Positions 2,496 through 16,110 of a stretch of DNA of 16,366 nt are shown here, piece by piece (positions within the stretch are counted from its first letter, which is position 1; the number at the start of each line of letters is the position of its first letter). The position numbers were made by a program, and so were the translations under genes. Under the pieces are notes generated by a model. It was given only the letters and a program-made list of their open reading frames with translations, had not been told where the DNA came from and made no database searches. This DNA is from Candidatus Nitrosopumilus sp. (lineage in GTDB: Archaea; Thermoproteota; Nitrososphaeria; Nitrososphaerales; Nitrosopumilaceae): positions 1 to 16,366 of the forward strand of contig JAEMQG010000134.1 of NCBI GenBank assembly GCA_022758935.1. Direction: 5' to 3'.

Positions 2496-3875
2496 TTAAA
2501 TGGGTTTTCCTTTGTATTGATAATCAATTACTTTATGAAATGTGTTGTGAGATGCAATTATTGCAATGATGGCAGTAATCATACCAACAAAATTTCTCAA
2601 TGTAATTATATCATTAGGATGTGGAGCTAGTATTGAAGTATCAAAGACAACATAAAAATTATCAAATGACCAAAATGCAAGAGTTATCCATGATAGAATC
2701 CCACTAATAATAAACCCAAGTCGGGTTTTACTCTTCACAAAAATAATTGCTGATGCAATTCCTACATACCAAAAAAATCCACCCACAATCCAGCCAAAAT
2801 GATAAACATCTGGTCTATCATCCAACCAATAATAGGTTGTTCCGATAATTGCCATAGCAATTAATGAGCCAAGTAATAGTTTTTGATTTATTTTAAAACC
2901 AGTTTTTTCTTCTCTAGGATTTATTTCAGGAGGGTTTTGTCTCATTTCCTTGGTTGCAATGTCTATTGCCTCACGAACAGATTTCAATCTAATTGGAATG
3001 ATTGTAGTAATGGAATTGTCATTCACTACTGTATCGTGAACAAGACTATCAATTAACGGTCTTGCCAAAGATGCCTTTACCGGTGTAATAAGATCCACCC
3101 AATATGAGGAAAGTCTCGTAGTAAGAAAAGGAATTTGTATAACAAAGAGATTCTTGTTCAAATAAGCAGAATAAACACGCATTAGTTCTTCATATGTCAT
3201 AATATCAGGTCCGCCAATTTCATAGATTTTGCCAGTTGTTTCAGGATGTTTCATGCACTCTACTAGATATTCTACTACATCATCAACAGCAATTGGTTGT
3301 GCAAGTGATTTTACCCAAGAGGGCGTTACCATTATTCGTAATCGCTCAACAAGATAACGAAGCATAGCGTATGAACCTCCCTGAGCTCCAATGATTAATG
3401 ATGCACGTAATTGAGTTACAGGAATATTTCCAGATGCCAAGATCTCACCCACTTCTTTTCTGCTTTGCATGTGAGGAGATAATTCCAGGCTATCATTTAC
3501 CAAACCACCAAGATAGATTATTCTTTTGACATTGGCTTTAGTTGCCGCTTTGAGAAAATTTTGAGCTTGGATTCTTTCTCTAGATGCAAACTCTTTCCAG
3601 TGTTCTTTACTTCCCTCCATAGAGTGAAGAAGATAGTATACAAAATCAATTCCAGTCATGGCTTGTTCTAATTGTTCGACATCAAAAACATCAGCCTGAA
3701 CATATTTTACGTTTTTTGTATCTAAAAGTTTTTTTCTACTCATTCCTTTTACGGCAAATCCAGATGAAGACAAAGCAGAGATTAACCTAGAACCAATAAA
3801 ACCGGTGGCACCAGTTACCAAAATAGAATAAGGTGGTAATTTAGAAAATGCATCATTGGGTATTTTTTGACTCAT
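2496..3875 (-). CDS. NmrA-like atypical SDR with four-helix membrane tail
   Basis: A 459-residue protein in two parts. Residues 16-310 form an extended/atypical short-chain dehydrogenase fold with the nucleotide-binding TGATGFIGSRL (21-31), a DVFD acidic turn near 62-65, YYLLHSM (80-86) and IGGPDIMTYEELM near 220. No classical YxxxK pair stands out where expected, as in NmrA-like members. The tail has about four hydrophobic segments (roughly 333-352, 360-379, 387-405, 427-443), so the enzyme is probably tethered to the membrane. The substrate is unknown. Similar NAD(P)-binding proteins are found near photolyase and B12-photoreceptor genes in bacteria (established knowledge, recalled). It is convergent with photolyase and divergent from the cobalamin-binding gene at 4137, from which it is separated by two tandem-repeat promoters. 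The ATG at 3875 lies 8 nt after a possible leader ORF. Confidence 0.8.
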   Translation of the reverse strand: MSQKIPNDAFSKLPPYSILVTGATGFIGSRLISALSSSGFAVKGMSRKKLLDTKNVKYVQADVFDVEQLEQAMTGIDFVYYLLHSMEGSKEHWKEFASRERIQAQNFLKAATKANVKRIIYLGGLVNDSLELSPHMQSRKEVGEILASGNIPVTQLRASLIIGAQGGSYAMLRYLVERLRIMVTPSWVKSLAQPIAVDDVVEYLVECMKHPETTGKIYEIGGPDIMTYEELMRVYSAYLNKNLFVIQIPFLTTRLSSYWVDLITPVKASLARPLIDSLVHDTVVNDNSITTIIPIRLKSVREAIDIATKEMRQNPPEINPREEKTGFKINQKLLLGSLIAMAIIGTTYYWLDDRPDVYHFGWIVGGFFWYVGIASAIIFVKSKTRLGFIISGILSWITLAFWSFDNFYVVFDTSILAPHPNDIITLRNFVGMITAIIAIIASHNTFHKVIDYQYKGKPI

Positions 3876-3967: not shown

Positions 3968-3988
3968 AAGTTGAATTTGAAAATAAAT

Positions 3989-4025
3989 TATTTAAACTAG
4001 TGTTAAGGTAACAAACTAGTGCCAA
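3989..4025 (-). promoter_or_regulatory. Tandem-element promoter facing the SDR gene
   Basis: Read on the minus strand: TTGGCACTAGT (4025-4015) and TTAACACTAGT (4006-3996), 19 bp apart, the proximal copy running directly into TTTAAATA (3996-3989). The TATA centre is about 26 nt from the ATG at 3967. Same layout as 404-444 (-) and 4079-4114 (+). Together with the next feature it gives two back-to-back tandem sites between the SDR and the cobalamin-binding gene. Confidence 0.55.
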
Positions 4026-4078: not shown

Positions 4079-4114
4079 TTAGCACTAGTGATGAATATTA
4101 GCACTAATTAAATA
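4079..4114 (+). promoter_or_regulatory. Tandem-element promoter of the cobalamin-binding gene
   Basis: TTAGCACTAGT at 4079-4089 and TTAGCACTAAT at 4098-4108, 19 bp apart, the second overlapping TTAAATA at 4108-4114. The TATA centre is 26 nt before ATG 4137, so a leaderless mRNA is likely. The proximal copy occupies the BRE position, where a bound repressor would block TBP/TFB; it could equally be a variant recognition element for one of the multiple TFB factors of this group. Confidence 0.6.
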
Positions 4115-4136
4115 GGTTATTCAAAATATAAAAAAC

Positions 4137-4979
4137 ATGGTGTACATTAGAGCAAAGAAAGTAAAATCTGACAATTACCTGTATTTAGTAAAAAGTATCT
4201 GGGATTCCAAAAAGAATACATCAAAACAAGAGATCATAAAATACCTAGGTAAAGCATCAGAAGTTGTTAAAGATGACCTACCAATAGATTATCGAAATGA
4301 TCCAAAAATTCTATCCGCAATTGCATTACACAATCCAAGAGATTTAGTAAAAAGAGAAGAGTCAACAAAAAAATCAAAACAAATTTTATATAAAAAATTA
4401 ACGGATGGGGACATTCATTCATCTGTAAAAATTTATGAAGAATATACCAAAATTTTTAATTCTGCTGATTTTTTTGATAAAATTTTAAGACCAGTCATGC
4501 ATAAAATAGGTGATGATTGGGCAAATAATATAATCAATATTGCAACAGAACATGTTGCAAGCAATGTTGCTCAAGCACTTGTTAAAATTATTATGGATAA
4601 AGTTACAGGGAATGCCAACAAAAAGAAAATTCTTGTTTGTGTTCCAGTAGGAGAAGAACATCATTTAGGTTGTGATGTTTTGGAGACATATCTTTCACTA
4701 AAGGGGTTCAAAGTGTACAATATGGGCACATCAATACCCACAGAATCAATACTCAGTTTTATTGAAAGTAACAAACCAGACGTCATACTAGTTTCAATTA
4801 CATTGGAGGACAACATATTAGCAGGACAAAGACTAGTAAAAAAAATAAAGGATCAATACAGCATTCCAATATTGGTTGGGGGGTTTGCATTACAATCAAC
4901 TAAAGTACCAAAATTTGAGGCAACAGTAATTACAGAAACAACACTTGAAGAGATTCCTAAAATTCTTAGAACAGTGTAA
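4137..4979 (+). CDS. CarH/LitR-like cobalamin-binding protein without MerR domain
   Basis: A 280-residue protein in three parts. Residues 1-42 (starting MVYIRAKKVK, then YLYLVKSIW and EIIKYLGK) resemble the N-terminal segment of IS1634-type transposases and related proteins. Residues about 80-155 are helical and contain W128-x9-E138-H139, the Wx9EH signature of the adenosylcobalamin cap of CarH/LitR. Residues about 163-278 are a Rossmann-type B12 domain with E173-x-H175-x-x-G178 (H175 the expected lower ligand of cobalt), S220-x-T222 and G248-G249. Corrinoid methyl-transfer proteins normally read DxHDIG, so the ExHxxG plus Wx9EH pair points to a light or B12 sensor. T. thermophilus CarH has His132 right after its Trp; here that position is Ala129, so the light-state bis-His adduct may not form as described. 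A repressor role for photolyase, the SDR and itself is inference. Confidence 0.8.
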   Translation: MVYIRAKKVKSDNYLYLVKSIWDSKKNTSKQEIIKYLGKASEVVKDDLPIDYRNDPKILSAIALHNPRDLVKREESTKKSKQILYKKLTDGDIHSSVKIYEEYTKIFNSADFFDKILRPVMHKIGDDWANNIINIATEHVASNVAQALVKIIMDKVTGNANKKKILVCVPVGEEHHLGCDVLETYLSLKGFKVYNMGTSIPTESILSFIESNKPDVILVSITLEDNILAGQRLVKKIKDQYSIPILVGGFALQSTKVPKFEATVITETTLEEIPKILRTV

Positions 4980-5099: not shown

Positions 5100-5358
5100 A
5101 TGAAAAAAGAAATCGCATCAATTTACTCAAATTTTACCTCCTCATTACTTTGGGAAGGTTAGGGATTGGAAATTAGTTGAATCTATAGTTAAATCGCCCG
5201 GAATGGTATGGAAATCAAAAATGCCTCACGAAATACCTGGAATAAAAGGATTATTTTTTGTAGGTGATTCTACAATAAGTTAGGGTATTGGTACTGATTC
5301 TACGGGTTACAGATCTATTCTTTGTTATCCTAAAATTGTTTCCTATCTTAACAAGTAA
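5100..5358 (+). pseudogene. Decayed C-terminus of a phytoene-desaturase-like FAD oxidoreductase
   Basis: Two frames carry remnants. From ATG 5100, 20 codons (ending SNFTSSLLWEG) run to a stop at 5160. In another frame, codons from 5164 read DWKLVESIVKSPGMVW, then MPHEIPGIKGLFFVGDSTIS, a TAG stop at 5281-5283, GIGTDSTGYRSILCYPKI and a final TAA at 5356. GLFFVGDS followed by a GIGT turn is the C-terminal FAD-binding signature of phytoene-desaturase/carotenoid-isomerase-like amine oxidases. At least one frameshift and one in-frame stop break it, and the N-terminal FAD domain (several hundred residues) is absent from the upstream 120 bp. Carotenoid genes are classic CarH targets, so the position right behind the cobalamin-binding gene is suggestive. 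Family-level naming is by motif only. Confidence 0.65.
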
Positions 5359-6175: not shown

Positions 6176-6211
6176 TTAGCACTAGTTTCAACCTTTTCAT
6201 TGTCTTATATA
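6176..6211 (+). promoter_or_regulatory. Promoter of the 39-residue membrane protein
   Basis: A perfect TTAGCACTAGT at 6176-6186 and a TATA-like CTTATATA at 6204-6211, about 25 nt before ATG 6232. No convincing second copy lies at the 18-19 bp spacing (6194-6205 reads TTTTCATTGTCT). The element lies in the divergent region shared with the gene starting at 6125(-). Confidence 0.45.
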
Positions 6212-6468: not shown

Positions 6469-6507
6469 TTAGCACTAGAACTTATTTTAAGTACTATTGA
6501 TATATTA
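6469..6507 (+). promoter_or_regulatory. Promoter of the zinc-ribbon/PPOX operon
   Basis: TTAGCACTAGA at 6469-6479 and a degenerate second copy, TTAAGTACTAT, at 6487-6497, 18 bp apart; the latter is followed directly by GATATATTA (6499-6507), about 23 nt before ATG 6526. Layout as at 404-444 and 4079-4114, with a weaker proximal copy. Confidence 0.5.
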
Positions 6508-6631: not shown

Positions 6632-7069
6632 ATGTTGCAAAAAATAGATAGTCAAAAGATTGAGAATATGATTAATGATACAAGGATTCCAATAAGATTA
6701 GCTTGTATTACAAATGCAGGTTCTCCTATTGTAGTGTCTTTATGGTATACAGTAATTGACGATAAAATTTTTTGTGCAACTCAAAAAAAGGCAAAAATCA
6801 TATCACATATCAAAAATAATCCCATGGTTGGATTTGAGATAGCGACAGACAGTCCACCATACAGAGGAGTTAGAGGTCATGGGAAAGTCAAAGTGATAGA
6901 TGAGATGGGAAAAGAAATTCTCGAAATTCTAATAAACAAGTATTTAGGTAAAAAGATATCAACATTATCTGAATTTTTGAGGACTAATTCAGAAAATGAG
7001 GCTGCAATTGAGATAACGCCTGATAAAATAATCACGTATGATTATTCAAAGCGAATGAAGGATGCTTGA
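6632..7069 (+). CDS. PPOX-class (pyridoxamine 5'-phosphate oxidase-like) flavin-binding protein
   Basis: A 145-residue split beta-barrel protein. The N-terminal strand pair (IRLACITNAGSPIVVSLWYT, 21-40) and DDKIFCATQKKAKIISHIKN (43-62) match the first flavin-binding strands and the phosphate-contacting K/R-K-x-x-x-I turn of the family. The block GFEIATDSPPYRGVRGHGKV (67-86) is characteristic of archaeal and actinobacterial members. Such proteins bind FMN, F420 or heme; the sequence alone does not say which, and a role in pyridoxal phosphate synthesis is not implied. It lies 4 nt behind a zinc-ribbon micro-protein, and its last 8 nt overlap the start of a second zinc-ribbon ORF, so the three form a tight operon. 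Confidence 0.85.
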   Translation: MLQKIDSQKIENMINDTRIPIRLACITNAGSPIVVSLWYTVIDDKIFCATQKKAKIISHIKNNPMVGFEIATDSPPYRGVRGHGKVKVIDEMGKEILEILINKYLGKKISTLSEFLRTNSENEAAIEITPDKIITYDYSKRMKDA

Positions 7070-9858: not shown

Positions 9859-10356
9859 TCATGGACTCATCATGTGACTCATTTGTTTGCCTGTTGAATT
9901 TGTGCCATTAAACATCATGAGCATTTGATTCATTGCTTCTTGATTTTCACTCATGTGCCCAATCATTTGTAGTCTGAGGTCAGGATCGTTTATCATCTGT
10001 TTCATCATTTCTTGCATAAAGTCATGATTGTTTCTCATGAGTTCCGTCATTTGTGTTACATGTTGAGGATCCTGCATCCATTTACTCATCTGCGGATTGT
10101 TTGTCATTAATGCCATCATTTGGCTTTGAGTTTGAGGATTATTTGCCATGGAGTTCATCCACTGATTCATGAATTGGGGGTTATTCATCATCTGTTGATT
10201 CCACATAGTCATTTGTTTTGGGTCATTCATCATTTGTTGCATCTGTTGAGCATTCATCATCGGCGATACAGTATTTTGTTGAATCACAGACCCAATGCTC
10301 AACCCTGCAATAAAGACTGCAACTACAATACCGATCAGAACGTATTGTTTTACCAT
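9859..10356 (-). CDS. Methionine-rich secreted or membrane-anchored protein
   Basis: A 165-residue protein. Residues 1-27 are a signal peptide or N-terminal anchor (MVKQYVLIGIVVAVFIAGLS). The remainder is almost free of hydrophobic residues other than Met: I count 33 Met in 165 residues (20%). A degenerate unit of about 12-18 residues repeats, built on N-[ND]-P-Q/x-x-M-x-x-[WM]-M (for example NNPQFMNQWM and NNPQMSKWM), resembling the NP-x-M repeats of STI1/ubiquilin-type helical motifs. Clustered methionines outside the cytoplasm often bind Cu(I), and ammonia oxidation in these archaea needs much copper, so a copper-handling role is an attractive inference; a chaperone-like role is the alternative. 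No Cys and few His are present. Confidence 0.7.
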   Translation of the reverse strand: MVKQYVLIGIVVAVFIAGLSIGSVIQQNTVSPMMNAQQMQQMMNDPKQMTMWNQQMMNNPQFMNQWMNSMANNPQTQSQMMALMTNNPQMSKWMQDPQHVTQMTELMRNNHDFMQEMMKQMINDPDLRLQMIGHMSENQEAMNQMLMMFNGTNSTGKQMSHMMSP

Positions 10357-12265: not shown

Positions 12266-13564
12266 ATGGGTGAAGTAAACAAGAATTATTCCAATCCATA
12301 TTACAATTTTGTACTGGCTGGAATAGACATTGCATCAAAATATAATTCTGCTTTTCTTGAGGCAGCTGAAAAATCTTTTGAATCGTTTTTAAACAAAAAA
12401 GGTGAAACACAACAAAAAACCCAAACTAATATCAGAACTTCGTTTGATTCTACGCTGCGCGATTGTCTTAACGAAAATATTTTTGCATCAAGTATGGCAG
12501 ATTATGTTGATGCCTGGACAAAAATACTCCCTTCATTGTATAACCAATTTAGAAATAATTTCAACTTCTCACTATATGAAAACAAATTATTAGAACCAAT
12601 TAGAGACACCATCAACAGAACCCCATCAGAAGTAATTGAGATGAAGGGGAGATTCAAACTGCTTCACTATAAATCAGAATATCCGATAATTCACAAGACT
12701 CCAATCCTTGTAATTTATTATCTTATCAATCGACATTATATTTTGGATCTCTTACCAAAGATCAGTGTTATTAAAAATCTTCAAAGGCAAGGTTTTGACA
12801 TCTATACAACAGACTGGAATAATCCAGCATCATATAGCAGAGATCTTACTCTGGAAACTTATGCCGAAGAATATGTGGGGTATGCAGTAGAAAAGATCAA
12901 GGAGACAAGCGGTTCCAATAAAGTTTCCTTGTTCGGGTATTGCTGGGGAGGGATATTTGCTTTGATTTATGCAGCAATGTATCCTCAAAATGTTAAAAAT
13001 CTAATTTTACATGCAACACCCACAGACATAGAAAAAGAAGAGACGACGATAGAGAATTGGACTACGCATCTTAACGTAAATAACTTGATAGATACGTTTG
13101 GAAATGTGCCGGGTTGGTTCTTAAACTTGGCATTTGTTTTACGTAATCCAGTTGAAGTATTATTAAAATATCCCAGGTATTTCAGTGAACCACGTAATCT
13201 TGAGGAGATAAACCAATTTTTTGCAATTGAGACTTGGCTTTATGATAGTATCCCAATTATTGGAGAGATTTATCGTGAAATAGTAGAACAAGTGTATAGA
13301 CATAACCTATTGATAAAAAACAAGATGAAAGTGGGTAAAGATACCATTGACCTCAAAAATATAACCATGCCTGTTTTGAATATAATCGGCACAGAAGATG
13401 ATCTTGTCCCACCATCGGCAAGCAAATCAATAATTAATGTCATAGGAAGTGTTGACAAAAAACTAATCGAATTTCCAACAGGTCACGTTGGATTGTGCAT
13501 AAGCAGAAATGCACATGAGAAATTATGGCCAGAGGTTGGAAGATGGCTTGGTGCGCGATCATAA
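12266..13564 (+). CDS. phaC: Poly(3-hydroxyalkanoate) synthase, class III-type PhaC subunit
   Basis: A 432-residue alpha/beta hydrolase that polymerises 3-hydroxyacyl-CoA into storage polyester. The lipase-like box GYCWGG places the catalytic Cys at 226; Asp378 (in GTEDDLVPP) and His407 (in PTGHVGL) complete the triad. Upstream, ILVIYYLINRHYILDLLP and GFDIYTTDWNNP (176-187) are conserved PhaC blocks. The length is well short of class I/II enzymes (about 560-600 residues) and close to class III PhaC, which needs PhaE; no PhaE-like gene is in this window. The first 100 residues are more variable. The start is chosen as the first ATG, with a weak TATA-like AGTTATGTAG about 26 nt upstream. The ATPase gene follows after 17 nt on the same strand and may be co-transcribed. 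Confidence 0.92.
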   Translation: MGEVNKNYSNPYYNFVLAGIDIASKYNSAFLEAAEKSFESFLNKKGETQQKTQTNIRTSFDSTLRDCLNENIFASSMADYVDAWTKILPSLYNQFRNNFNFSLYENKLLEPIRDTINRTPSEVIEMKGRFKLLHYKSEYPIIHKTPILVIYYLINRHYILDLLPKISVIKNLQRQGFDIYTTDWNNPASYSRDLTLETYAEEYVGYAVEKIKETSGSNKVSLFGYCWGGIFALIYAAMYPQNVKNLILHATPTDIEKEETTIENWTTHLNVNNLIDTFGNVPGWFLNLAFVLRNPVEVLLKYPRYFSEPRNLEEINQFFAIETWLYDSIPIIGEIYREIVEQVYRHNLLIKNKMKVGKDTIDLKNITMPVLNIIGTEDDLVPPSASKSIINVIGSVDKKLIEFPTGHVGLCISRNAHEKLWPEVGRWLGARS

Positions 13565-13581
13565 TCAAATAATAATTTAAC

Positions 13582-16110
13582 ATGATGCACAAAAACCAAA
13601 AAGAGGATGAGGTCAGCATCTCGGGACTTACCATTGAGGAAATTTTTGCGCATTTTGGAACCTCAGAAAATGGTTTGAGTAGAAATATGGCTGAAAAAAA
13701 CCTAGTCAAATATGGTCCAAACATACTCAAACCAAAAAAGAAAATGGATCCTTTTACACTATTTTTCAATCAATTTAAAAATCCAATTATTCTCATCTTG
13801 ATTTCCGCATCAATTCTATCCCTAATTCTTAACAACTCTGTAGATGCAATAATAATTTTGATCATTGTTTTTGTTAGCAGCATACTTGGTTTTTGGCAAG
13901 AACGAGGAGCTGCAGATGCAGTAAAGAAACTTTTGTCAATAGTTCAAATCAAGTCAACTGTTCTTCGTGATTGCAAACATGAACGAATTCCTGTTGAACA
14001 GATTGTTCCAGGAGATGTAGTGATTCTTAGTGCTGGGGACATGGTACCTGGGGATGGAGTATTAATTGAATCAAGAGATCTTTTTGTGAATGAATCTACA
14101 TTAACTGGAGAGACATATCCAGTTGAAAAACACCCAGACCAAAACAGATCATCACCAGACAAAGATAAAAAAAATCTTGTCTTTATGAGTAGTAATATCA
14201 TAAGTGGTGATTGCACAGTACTTGTGACAAAAACCGCCACCAATACAGAGATAGGGAAAATTTCAGAACGGTTAAAATTCAGACAGCCCGAAACAGAATT
14301 TGAACGCGGCACAAGAAAATTCGGTTACTTTCTAATGCAGATCACACTAATCCTGGTAATTGCAATTTTTGCAATAAACTCTTATTTTGGAAGACCGATA
14401 ATAGACGCATTTCTATTCTCAATAGCTTTGGCTGTTGGGCTCACACCACAGTTGCTTCCTGCAATAATTATCATCAATCTATCAAAAGGGGCAAAAAAAA
14501 TGGCATCAAAAAAAGTAATCGTCAAGCGACTGGAATCTATTGAAAACCTAGGAAGTATGAACGTGCTTTGCTCTGATAAAACTGGGACACTTACAAAGGG
14601 AGAGATGAAGATAAAATCAACAATCGATACAGAGGGCACAGATAATCAAAAAATTCTTTTGTATGCATTTTTGAATGCGTCATTTGAATCTGGATTTACA
14701 AATCCAATCGATGAATGTATTAAAAATCAAAACAAGTTTGACATTAGAAACTTTTCTAAATTAGATGAAATACCTTATGACTTCATAAGAAAACGTCTCA
14801 GCATCCTAGTTTCATCTGAAAATGAAAATTTACACATTACAAAAGGAGCATTAAAGAACATACTTGAGATTTGCACAAGAGTAGAGCTTGCAAATAGTAA
14901 TATCATAGAACTTGAATCTGTTAAAGAAAAAATCGAAAAACAGTTTGAACATCTGAGTAACGATGGATTTCGAACACTTGGAGTTTCTTATAAAAAAATA
15001 ACAAAATCGCGCATATCCAAAGATGATGAGTTGGAGATGATATTTCTTGGTTTTCTTGTTTTTTTTGATCCGATAAAATCTGGGACTGCCGATACTATTA
15101 GAGAGCTAAGTGATCTTGGAATATCTACAAAGATAATTAGTGGAGACAATAGATACGTTGTCAAATATGTCGGTACACAAATCGGGTTATCTACGGACAT
15201 AATACTGACGGGTAGTGAGTTGCATAACATTAGTGATGAGGCACTACTTAACCAAGTTAACAATGTAAGTGTTTTTGCGGAAATAGAGCCCACTCAAAAA
15301 GAGCGAATTATTCTTGCCCTTAAAAAATCAAATAACGTAGTAGGATTTCTTGGCGACGGAGTAAATGATGCAATAGCTCTTCATGCAGCAGATGTTGGCA
15401 TTTCAGTTGAAAGTGCTGTTGATGTTGCTAAAGAAAGTGCAGATGTCGTTTTACTTGAAAAGGATTTGAAAATTCTTGCAGAAGGAGTAATGTTGGGTAG
15501 GACTGCATTTGTTAATACTCTCAAGTATGTCTTTATGGCAACTAGTGCAAACTTTGGAAACATGTTCAGTATGGCGGGGGCATCACTTTTTTTGTCATTT
15601 CTTCCATTATTACCAAAACAAATTTTGCTTGAAAATTTAATGACAGATTTTCCTGAATTGACCATATCCACAGACAATGTAGATAAGAAATTGGTACAGC
15701 GGCCAAGAAGATGGAATATCAAATTCATACGTAAATTTATGATCACATTTGGATTTTTGAGTGTAGTATTTGATTTTCTAGCATTTGGAGTTTTTACATT
15801 ATTACAAGCAACAGAGCAAGACTTCAGAACAGGGTGGTTTGTTGAATCGGTCATATCTGCATCAGTAGTGGTGTTGATAATTCGTACAGAGAAGCCATTT
15901 TTTAAAAGCAGGCCAAGCAAAAATCTTTTGATTGCAACTTTATCCCTAGTTATTGCTACGTTAATTTTCCCACTAACGCCACTTGCCAAGATACTTGGAT
16001 TTGTGACAATACCTGCATCATTCTATGCTTCCATAGCTGTGATAATATCGCTGTATATCGTGAGTGCTGAAATTGTCAAAAAGAAATTTTATTCAAAGAT
16101 GGAGACGTGA
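13582..16110 (+). CDS. mgtA: MgtA-type (P-IIIB) magnesium-transporting P-type ATPase
   Basis: An 842-residue P-type ATPase. Domains in order: N-terminal cation-ATPase segment (13-60), M1-M2 (about 66-106), actuator with TGE (175-177), M3-M4 (about 248-298), phosphorylation site DKTGT with Asp332, nucleotide-binding KGA (421-423), hinge GDGVNDA (591-597), and M5-M10 to the end. Blocks LTPQLLPAIIIINLSKGAKKM, VKRLESIENLGSMNVLCSDK and NFGNMFSMAGASLFLSFLPL correspond closely to MgtA/MgtB signatures (LTPEMLP...NLAKGA, VKRL...GAMDVLC, NFGNVFS), favouring Mg2+ uptake over Ca2+ or H+ pumping. It is slightly shorter than enterobacterial MgtA (about 900), mainly at the N-terminus. Two adjacent ATGs (13582, 13585) are possible starts. 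Located 17 nt behind phaC; no metabolic link is obvious. Confidence 0.9.
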   Translation: MMHKNQKEDEVSISGLTIEEIFAHFGTSENGLSRNMAEKNLVKYGPNILKPKKKMDPFTLFFNQFKNPIILILISASILSLILNNSVDAIIILIIVFVSSILGFWQERGAADAVKKLLSIVQIKSTVLRDCKHERIPVEQIVPGDVVILSAGDMVPGDGVLIESRDLFVNESTLTGETYPVEKHPDQNRSSPDKDKKNLVFMSSNIISGDCTVLVTKTATNTEIGKISERLKFRQPETEFERGTRKFGYFLMQITLILVIAIFAINSYFGRPIIDAFLFSIALAVGLTPQLLPAIIIINLSKGAKKMASKKVIVKRLESIENLGSMNVLCSDKTGTLTKGEMKIKSTIDTEGTDNQKILLYAFLNASFESGFTNPIDECIKNQNKFDIRNFSKLDEIPYDFIRKRLSILVSSENENLHITKGALKNILEICTRVELANSNIIELESVKEKIEKQFEHLSNDGFRTLGVSYKKITKSRISKDDELEMIFLGFLVFFDPIKSGTADTIRELSDLGISTKIISGDNRYVVKYVGTQIGLSTDIILTGSELHNISDEALLNQVNNVSVFAEIEPTQKERIILALKKSNNVVGFLGDGVNDAIALHAADVGISVESAVDVAKESADVVLLEKDLKILAEGVMLGRTAFVNTLKYVFMATSANFGNMFSMAGASLFLSFLPLLPKQILLENLMTDFPELTISTDNVDKKLVQRPRRWNIKFIRKFMITFGFLSVVFDFLAFGVFTLLQATEQDFRTGWFVESVISASVVVLIIRTEKPFFKSRPSKNLLIATLSLVIATLIFPLTPLAKILGFVTIPASFYASIAVIISLYIVSAEIVKKKFYSKMET

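Follow-up and report, generated by a model that had tools for sequence, protein, structure and literature searches.

The gene at 4137-4979 (+) of the window, that is, of the whole stretch of 16,366 nucleotides analysed here, encodes a protein of 280 aa that is probably an AdoCbl-dependent, light-released transcription regulator of ammonia-oxidising archaea. We infer its cofactor, response to light, DNA binding, oligomer formation and repressor action from the sequence: a cobalamin module with invariant residues, an operator, a set of associated genes, and co-occurrence. On these grounds the protein most likely functions like CarH/LitR, yet it is no member of that group, the MerR domain being missing. 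It also seems fairly likely that it belongs to a family of light-sensing B12 regulators that spans four taxonomic families within a single order of ammonia oxidisers and is equipped with a DNA-binding beta domain of an undescribed kind, an operator of its own and a regulon: an archaeal transcriptional B12 light switch. If this is true, globally important microbes possess a light-responsive gene switch, and the family adds a new output domain for B12 photoreceptors and a new archaeal DNA-binding domain.

Nitrification is inhibited by light (passages of PMC9239080), and the ancestor of ammonia-oxidising archaea has been inferred to have gained cobalamin synthesis (passages of PMC7554672). Among the genes of the source genome are those for a protein of the cobalamin adenosyltransferase family and one of the methylmalonyl-CoA mutase family. 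Among the matches listed by a full-text search of CC-licensed papers, none concerned a B12 light sensor in ammonia-oxidising archaea, an archaeal CarH/LitR or this regulator. With the gene, its operator and the gene set defined, the way in which ammonia-oxidising archaea sense light becomes directly testable.

The cobalamin module and its light-response residues

The earlier note had proposed a CarH/LitR-like B12 photoreceptor candidate without a MerR domain, a reading that motifs, structure matches and phylogeny now support at the level of sequence. On re-reading, the open reading frame, W128-x9-E138-H139 and E173-x-H175-x-x-G178 are all as it had described them. The ORF list, Pfam, NCBIfam, the alignment, the AF2 model and Foldseek all contribute to the identification of the gene. 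Domain order is simple: an N-terminal domain of 39 residues, a linker, and two Pfam cobalamin domains that both exceed their cut-offs. The helical part (B12-binding_2, residues 84-152; 4386-4592, +) carries GxxW (125-128) and EH (138-139), and the Rossmann part (B12-binding, residues 164-250; 4626-4886, +) carries GxxH (172-175), whose H175 is the proposed lower axial ligand of cobalamin. In the AF2 model the protein stops at residue 280, after the Rossmann part. In NCBIfam the CarH model ranks first (59.9 bits for residues 76-265, short of the cut-off of 400), ahead of methyltransferase corrinoid families at 48.3 bits or less. The top PDB sequence matches are 8j2x/8j2w (photocobilin), then 8c35 (the TtCarH H132A variant).

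A published signature of light-responsive cobalamin domains (SignatureFinder) consists of GxxW, EH, GxxH and GxxxP (parts of PMC11796333), and the window protein carries all four elements: G125-W128, E138-H139, G172-H175 and G197-P201. We followed these residues in an alignment of 86 rows, made up of the window protein, 14 of 18 loci from genome contigs and 71 of 254 listed database proteins. GxxW, EH and GxxH (G125, W128, E138, H139, G172, H175) are unchanged in all 86, the most distant of which is 29% identical. The Wx9EH feature of CarH/LitR is present, with W128, E138 and H139 each in 86/86. The complete set of invariant columns is P49, F112, G125, W128, E138, H139, N143, P170, G172, H175, N195, S220, G248 and G249. 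GxxxP is less fixed, with P201 in 82/86 and G197 in 20/86; at the lower-ligand motif ExHxxG, intact in the window protein, the 86 sequences have E in 74 and D in 12, H in 86 and G in 35.

The position of TtCarH H132 is occupied by A (59), E (10), M (9), L (5) or S (3) in the 86 rows, and never by H. Its equivalent is Arg, Gln and Tyr in the light-responsive CtMerR, SasPcob and AbDPcob, respectively, and TtCarH H132A cannot monomerise (both from parts of PMC11796333). With the second His missing here, and given the behaviour of H132A, the light state would need to work as in CtMerR, SasPcob and AbDPcob.

Divergent, broken and cut copies of the gene also occur. Genome G192 has a second, divergent copy (L068, 8402-9265, -) about 3 kb from photolyase, which has lost W128, E138 and H139 while keeping GEQH and recalls CarA, the Myxococcus paralogue that works without B12. 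In genome G396 a stop codon breaks the B12 gene (L174, 5745-6635, -). Contig C148 of the window's own assembly holds a cut second B12 gene (L159), 87% identical over 113 residues; the FAD oxidoreductase of this locus is 99% identical to its counterpart in Nitrosarchaeum sp. BD3, and L159 probably comes from another strain that was binned together.

Relation to corrinoid proteins of methyl transfer

Automatic labels in public databases call some members light-induced MerR regulators and others methanogenic corrinoid proteins or methionine synthases, and the latter names suggest a corrinoid protein of methyl transfer. Such proteins and MetH do share the two-part cobalamin fold. Whole-domain profile scores are comparable as well: TtCarH, at 47.0 bits, is no closer than 24 corrinoid/MetH-type domains, which range from 43.9 to 77.0 bits and mostly outscore it, and its structure ties with that of MetH as a match to the AF2 model. 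Among the matches listed for that model, however, the top five from VIA and each of the 50 Foldseek rows are B12 photoreceptors. Motifs and phylogeny are what separate the two groups. GxxW..EH occurs in none of the 24 comparison corrinoid/MetH-type proteins (20 unannotated archaeal, 2 bacterial corrinoid, 2 MetH-type), whereas it is present in the regulator, in T. thermophilus CarH and in four other bacterial B12 proteins (2 Streptomyces, Skermanella, Pontibacillus). Only the T. thermophilus protein is named as a photoreceptor in its record; the other four bear generic names and were grouped as photoreceptor-type after the motif had been seen, so that its presence in them is partly circular. 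The GDxHDIGK-type motif of methyl-transfer corrinoid proteins is, conversely, absent from the regulator. In the tree the regulator family falls outside the separate corrinoid clade, in line with the claim of the earlier note and not with a place within methyltransferase corrinoid proteins. A Pfam scan of 12 window proteins detected no methyltransferase, and the regulator has a fused beta domain and an operator. It is thus by motif and tree, not by profile score, that we discard a function in methyl transfer, which is extremely improbable.

The N-terminal beta domain

The N-terminus was said to lack a MerR helix-turn-helix, and this holds: residues 1-80 gave no MerR or other domain match. The AF2 model instead shows a basic three-stranded beta domain in residues 1-39 (4137-4253, +), with antiparallel strands at 2-9, 12-23 and 28-39, which we propose to be DNA-binding. 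Family, paralogue and fold searches returned no family, no paralogue and no clear fold match for it. Across the 86 sequences its net charge has a median of +7 (range 0 to +9), and it is the best-conserved part of the protein, with a mean majority-residue frequency of 0.70 vs 0.57-0.60 in the B12 part. That this domain binds DNA is suggested by its charge and its degree of conservation, together with the operator described below. Most matches of the search within the order reach back to query residue 1 or 2, and those that start later are partial, which indicates that the domain travels with the cobalamin module.

At E values of 1e-25 or better, the regulator was detected in 69 of the 201 genomes searched from the order. 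The family to which the window belongs (f1) contributes 36, out of 52 genomes, while f3, f66 and f2 contribute 25, 5 and 3. Named matches include Nitrosarchaeum, Nitrosopumilus, Candidatus Nitrosocaldus and Nitrososphaeraceae. Outside the order, the matches listed in a search of 300 genomes from the phylum show 17-30% identity and extend little or not at all into the N-terminal domain.

Operator sites in the window

The operator consensus is TTAGCACTAG-N9-TTAGCAYTAG, abutting a TATA-like sequence. The gap of 261 bp between the divergent SDR and B12 genes contains two repeat pairs, one aimed at each gene. That of the B12 gene (4079-4107, +) consists of TTAGCACTAG and TTAGCACTAA, with their starts 19 bp apart, and leads up to the TATA-like TTAAATAG at 4108-4115; that of the SDR gene (3997-4025, -) consists of TTGGCACTAG and TTAACACTAG, again 19 bp start to start, with a TATA-like sequence at 3986-3996. 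A third double box, TTGGCACTAG / TTGGCACCAG with a spacing of 18 bp (415-442, -), lies before TTTAAATA and precedes the secreted-looking gene cut by the left edge; it stands upstream of DUF1722 too, in reverse orientation. Upstream of the PPOX gene (6469-6497, +), TTAGCACTAG is followed 19 bp on by a degenerate second box, read by eye, before a TATA-like sequence. A single box TTAGCACTAG at 6176-6185 (+) is followed by a TATA-like sequence and a short ORF, also read by eye.

Single boxes number 15 in the window vs 5.2 expected, and 0/200 shuffles reach 15. These counts were superseded by a stricter test for the double box, defined by a spacing of 18-20 and at most 1 mismatch in all. The box consensus was derived from the window and from B12 promoters, so that box counts at B12 genes are not independent of it.

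Operator sites in relatives

In an upstream alignment of 51 loci, which excludes L005 and L016 (duplicates of L052 and L088), L020 (cut) and L068 (divergent paralogue), box 1 with at most 2 mismatches to TTAGCACTAG lies some 57 nt ahead of the start codon of the B12 gene in 46/51 loci; it is missing at that place in L075, L079, L080, L081 and L082 (5/51). Box 2 follows about 19 bp after box 1 and runs into a TATA-like sequence. Mismatch-free double boxes are found in L083 and L084 (genus of Nitrosocaldus) and in L082, and one with 2 mismatches in L090. In a further sample of 20 B12 loci, mostly outside the window's family, 8 have a double box ahead of the B12 gene that shows no more than 1 mismatch (L173, L174, L181, L183, L184, L186, L187, L189); it stands at -134 in L186 and at -86 of the interrupted gene in L174, and its spacing is 20 in L189. 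Three more (L172, L180, L182) have a double box with 2 mismatches, and no double box was found at the B12 gene in the remaining 9/20 (L171, L175, L176, L177, L178, L179, L185, L188, L190).

Counts by gene, from which the duplicates L005 and L016 were likewise left out, are uneven. A double box stands 48-68 nt before the start codon of the B12 gene in 46/52 cases, of the secreted-looking protein gene in 34/42, of the FAD oxidoreductase in 9/24, of the 184-aa protein in 6/16 and of the SDR in 6/42, vs 11/547 for other ORFs. At this distance there was no case among TFB (41), DUF1722 (35), photolyase (19), PPOX (14) and HD protein (7) genes, nor among the 120-aa cluster 5 (26), the 150-aa cluster 6 (25), the 227-aa protein (21) and clusters 17 and 18 (11 each). 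Within 260 nt, the double box precedes 34/42 secreted-looking, 24/42 SDR, 6/14 PPOX, 9/24 FAD oxidoreductase and 6/15 184-aa protein genes, and is rare before other genes (18/670). DUF1722 has no forward double box within this range (0/34), and the reverse pair that precedes it in 27/34 is explained by its back-to-back arrangement with the secreted-looking protein gene. Photolyase has none either (0/18), which leaves direct operator control of photolyase without sequence support.

A scan of 61 genomes from the family with the strict double box gave 39 matches, spread over 22 of them, compared with 8 in 7 for the reversed pattern. The strict double box occurs in 19/23 genomes with the B12 gene vs 3/38 without (Fisher one-sided 3e-9, a value that overstates the evidence because the genomes are related by descent and not independent), and was not found in 4/23 genomes having the gene. 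The association is in part trivial: wherever the gene occurs, so does its own promoter. Boxes also occur away from it, for instance before PPOX genes in G037 and G471 that sit on contigs other than that of the B12 gene. The SDR follows the same distribution (19/61 genomes: 18/23 with the B12 gene, 1/38 without), and so does the FAD oxidoreductase (13/61 genomes: 13/23 and 0/38). In some genomes these genes are distant from the B12 gene, as is the SDR of G209, at 268 kb on the same contig.

Alternatively, a different factor such as a dedicated TFB might recognise the boxes, the B12 protein then being just one target among others or a co-regulator. A TFB gene lies within 9 kb in at least 30 of 53 loci and box 2 occupies the BRE position; moreover, in the exceptional genome G473 (L162 / L126) the SDR and boxes are present and the B12 gene was not found, one strict double box standing 98 nt before a uracil-DNA-glycosylase-family gene. 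However, the boxes track the B12 gene across genomes, box 1 is too far upstream for a BRE, and none of 41 TFB genes has boxes. In addition, L076 is the only one of the rearranged loci L072-L078 with a listed TFB gene. Control of the boxes by another factor is accordingly quite unlikely, and the B12 protein remains our preferred reader of them.

Gene company and comparison with known systems

The neighbours reported by the earlier note, namely DUF1722, photolyase, an NmrA-like SDR and a desaturase relic, were all recovered from the ORF list, Pfam and relatives. From the left edge, the window contains the N-terminal part of a secreted-looking repeat protein (3-407, -; matching residues 1-134 of a 306-aa relative at 80% identity), whose cluster bears the operator in relatives; a DUF1722 protein (540-1103, +; Pfam); a DNA photolyase (1124-2482, +), whose top NCBIfam match, to the 8-HDF type, stays under the cut-off of that model; and the NmrA-like SDR oxidoreductase (2496-3875, -; Pfam). 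Beyond the regulator, a frame-shifted relic of an FAD (amine-oxidase/desaturase-like) gene (5100-5352, +) was recognised by its match to a relative's intact FAD oxidoreductase gene, with the C-terminus of which it is 84-85% identical; its two pieces do not share a reading frame, and the longer one contains a single in-frame stop. A PPOX-class protein (6632-7069, +) weakly matches F420-dependent families. A suspected identity of a 184-aa neighbour as a DICT domain found no support in Pfam or NCBIfam.

Within 9 kb of 53 B12 loci we counted at least 40 SDR, 36 DUF1722, 30 TFB, 23 FAD oxidoreductase and 14 photolyase genes, all lower bounds as some loci are cut short. Of the 201 genomes from the order, 18 have a photolyase gene. 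Every one of these 18 also has the B12 gene, and in 13, 2 of which belong to f3, the two genes lie within 10 kb of each other. DUF1722 is present in 28 of the 201, 27 of which have the B12 gene, and 24 of 26 same-contig pairs are within 6 kb. The neighbouring genes that bear the operator may protect against light damage.

This company had been likened to that of bacterial B12 photoreceptors, and the T. thermophilus carH region (phr, crtB, carH, ldrP, SDR, photolyase, FAD-dependent oxidoreductase) bears the likeness out. Its SDR is 34% identical to the window SDR over 300 aa (E 4e-56) and its photolyase 26% identical to the window photolyase over 409 aa, while the FAD-dependent oxidoreductase matches over 49 residues only. 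LitR of Pseudomonas likewise has photolyase, SDR and FAD-dependent oxidoreductase genes nearby, in an operon that is light-induced (passages of PMC9758184). These data bear on whether the protein senses cobalamin supply or redox state and not light. Redox enzymes among the gene set would suit such a role, but the light-response signature among the invariant residues, the restriction of photolyase to genomes with the B12 gene and the light induction of the Pseudomonas operon make it improbable, and we retain a light sensor as the preferred reading.

CarH of T. thermophilus and class II LitR resemble the archaeal system in the B12 module with Wx9EH and ExHxxG and in a direct-repeat operator at the promoter. 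They differ from it in having a MerR domain in place of the beta domain and tandem 11-bp repeats in place of repeats 19 bp apart; TtCarH has H132, which is lacking here, and the promoter here is archaeal. CtMerR of Chloracidobacterium (8JBS/8JBT) is, by its PDB title, a protein of the MerR family, and photocobilins (SasPcob, AbDPcob) have a bilin-binding domain (parts of PMC11796333), unlike the archaeal protein with its end after the Rossmann part.

Proposed mechanism

A dark repressor released by light is the best-supported reading. In the dark, AdoCbl would be bound base-off/His-on through H175, with its adenosyl group packed on W128, E138 and H139, and would keep the protein assembled head to tail, as a dimer or a larger oligomer. 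Two subunits could then place their basic beta domains on the two direct repeats, which are 19 bp apart and abut the TATA box, and the bound oligomer would block TBP/TFB at its own promoter and at those of the SDR and secreted-looking genes, as well as, in some genomes, at FAD-oxidoreductase and PPOX promoters. CarH packing is described as head-to-tail (a portion of PMC8156234), which the direct repeats fit, and the location of box 2 at a TATA-like sequence fits the exclusion of TBP/TFB. Light would cleave the Co-C bond; since H132 has no counterpart here, stabilisation of the light state would dispense with the second His, as in CtMerR, the oligomer would loosen and the genes would be expressed.

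The main rival keeps the same sensor and operator and makes the protein an activator, bound just upstream of the TATA box and recruiting TBP/TFB in the light or in the dark. Both boxes do lie directly upstream of the TATA-like sequence, a position that serves archaeal activators and repressors alike. Box 2, however, abuts that sequence and covers the BRE position. Bacterial CarH, moreover, is a repressor whose operator overlaps promoter elements (passages of PMC9304148). An activator thus appears unlikely, and we favour the light-released repressor.

Further along the window, 9859-10356 (-) encodes a protein very rich in Met, Asn and Gln with weak Pfam matches, and a PhaC-like protein of the polyhydroxyalkanoate synthase type (12266-13564, +) is followed by a P-type cation ATPase (13582-16110, +).
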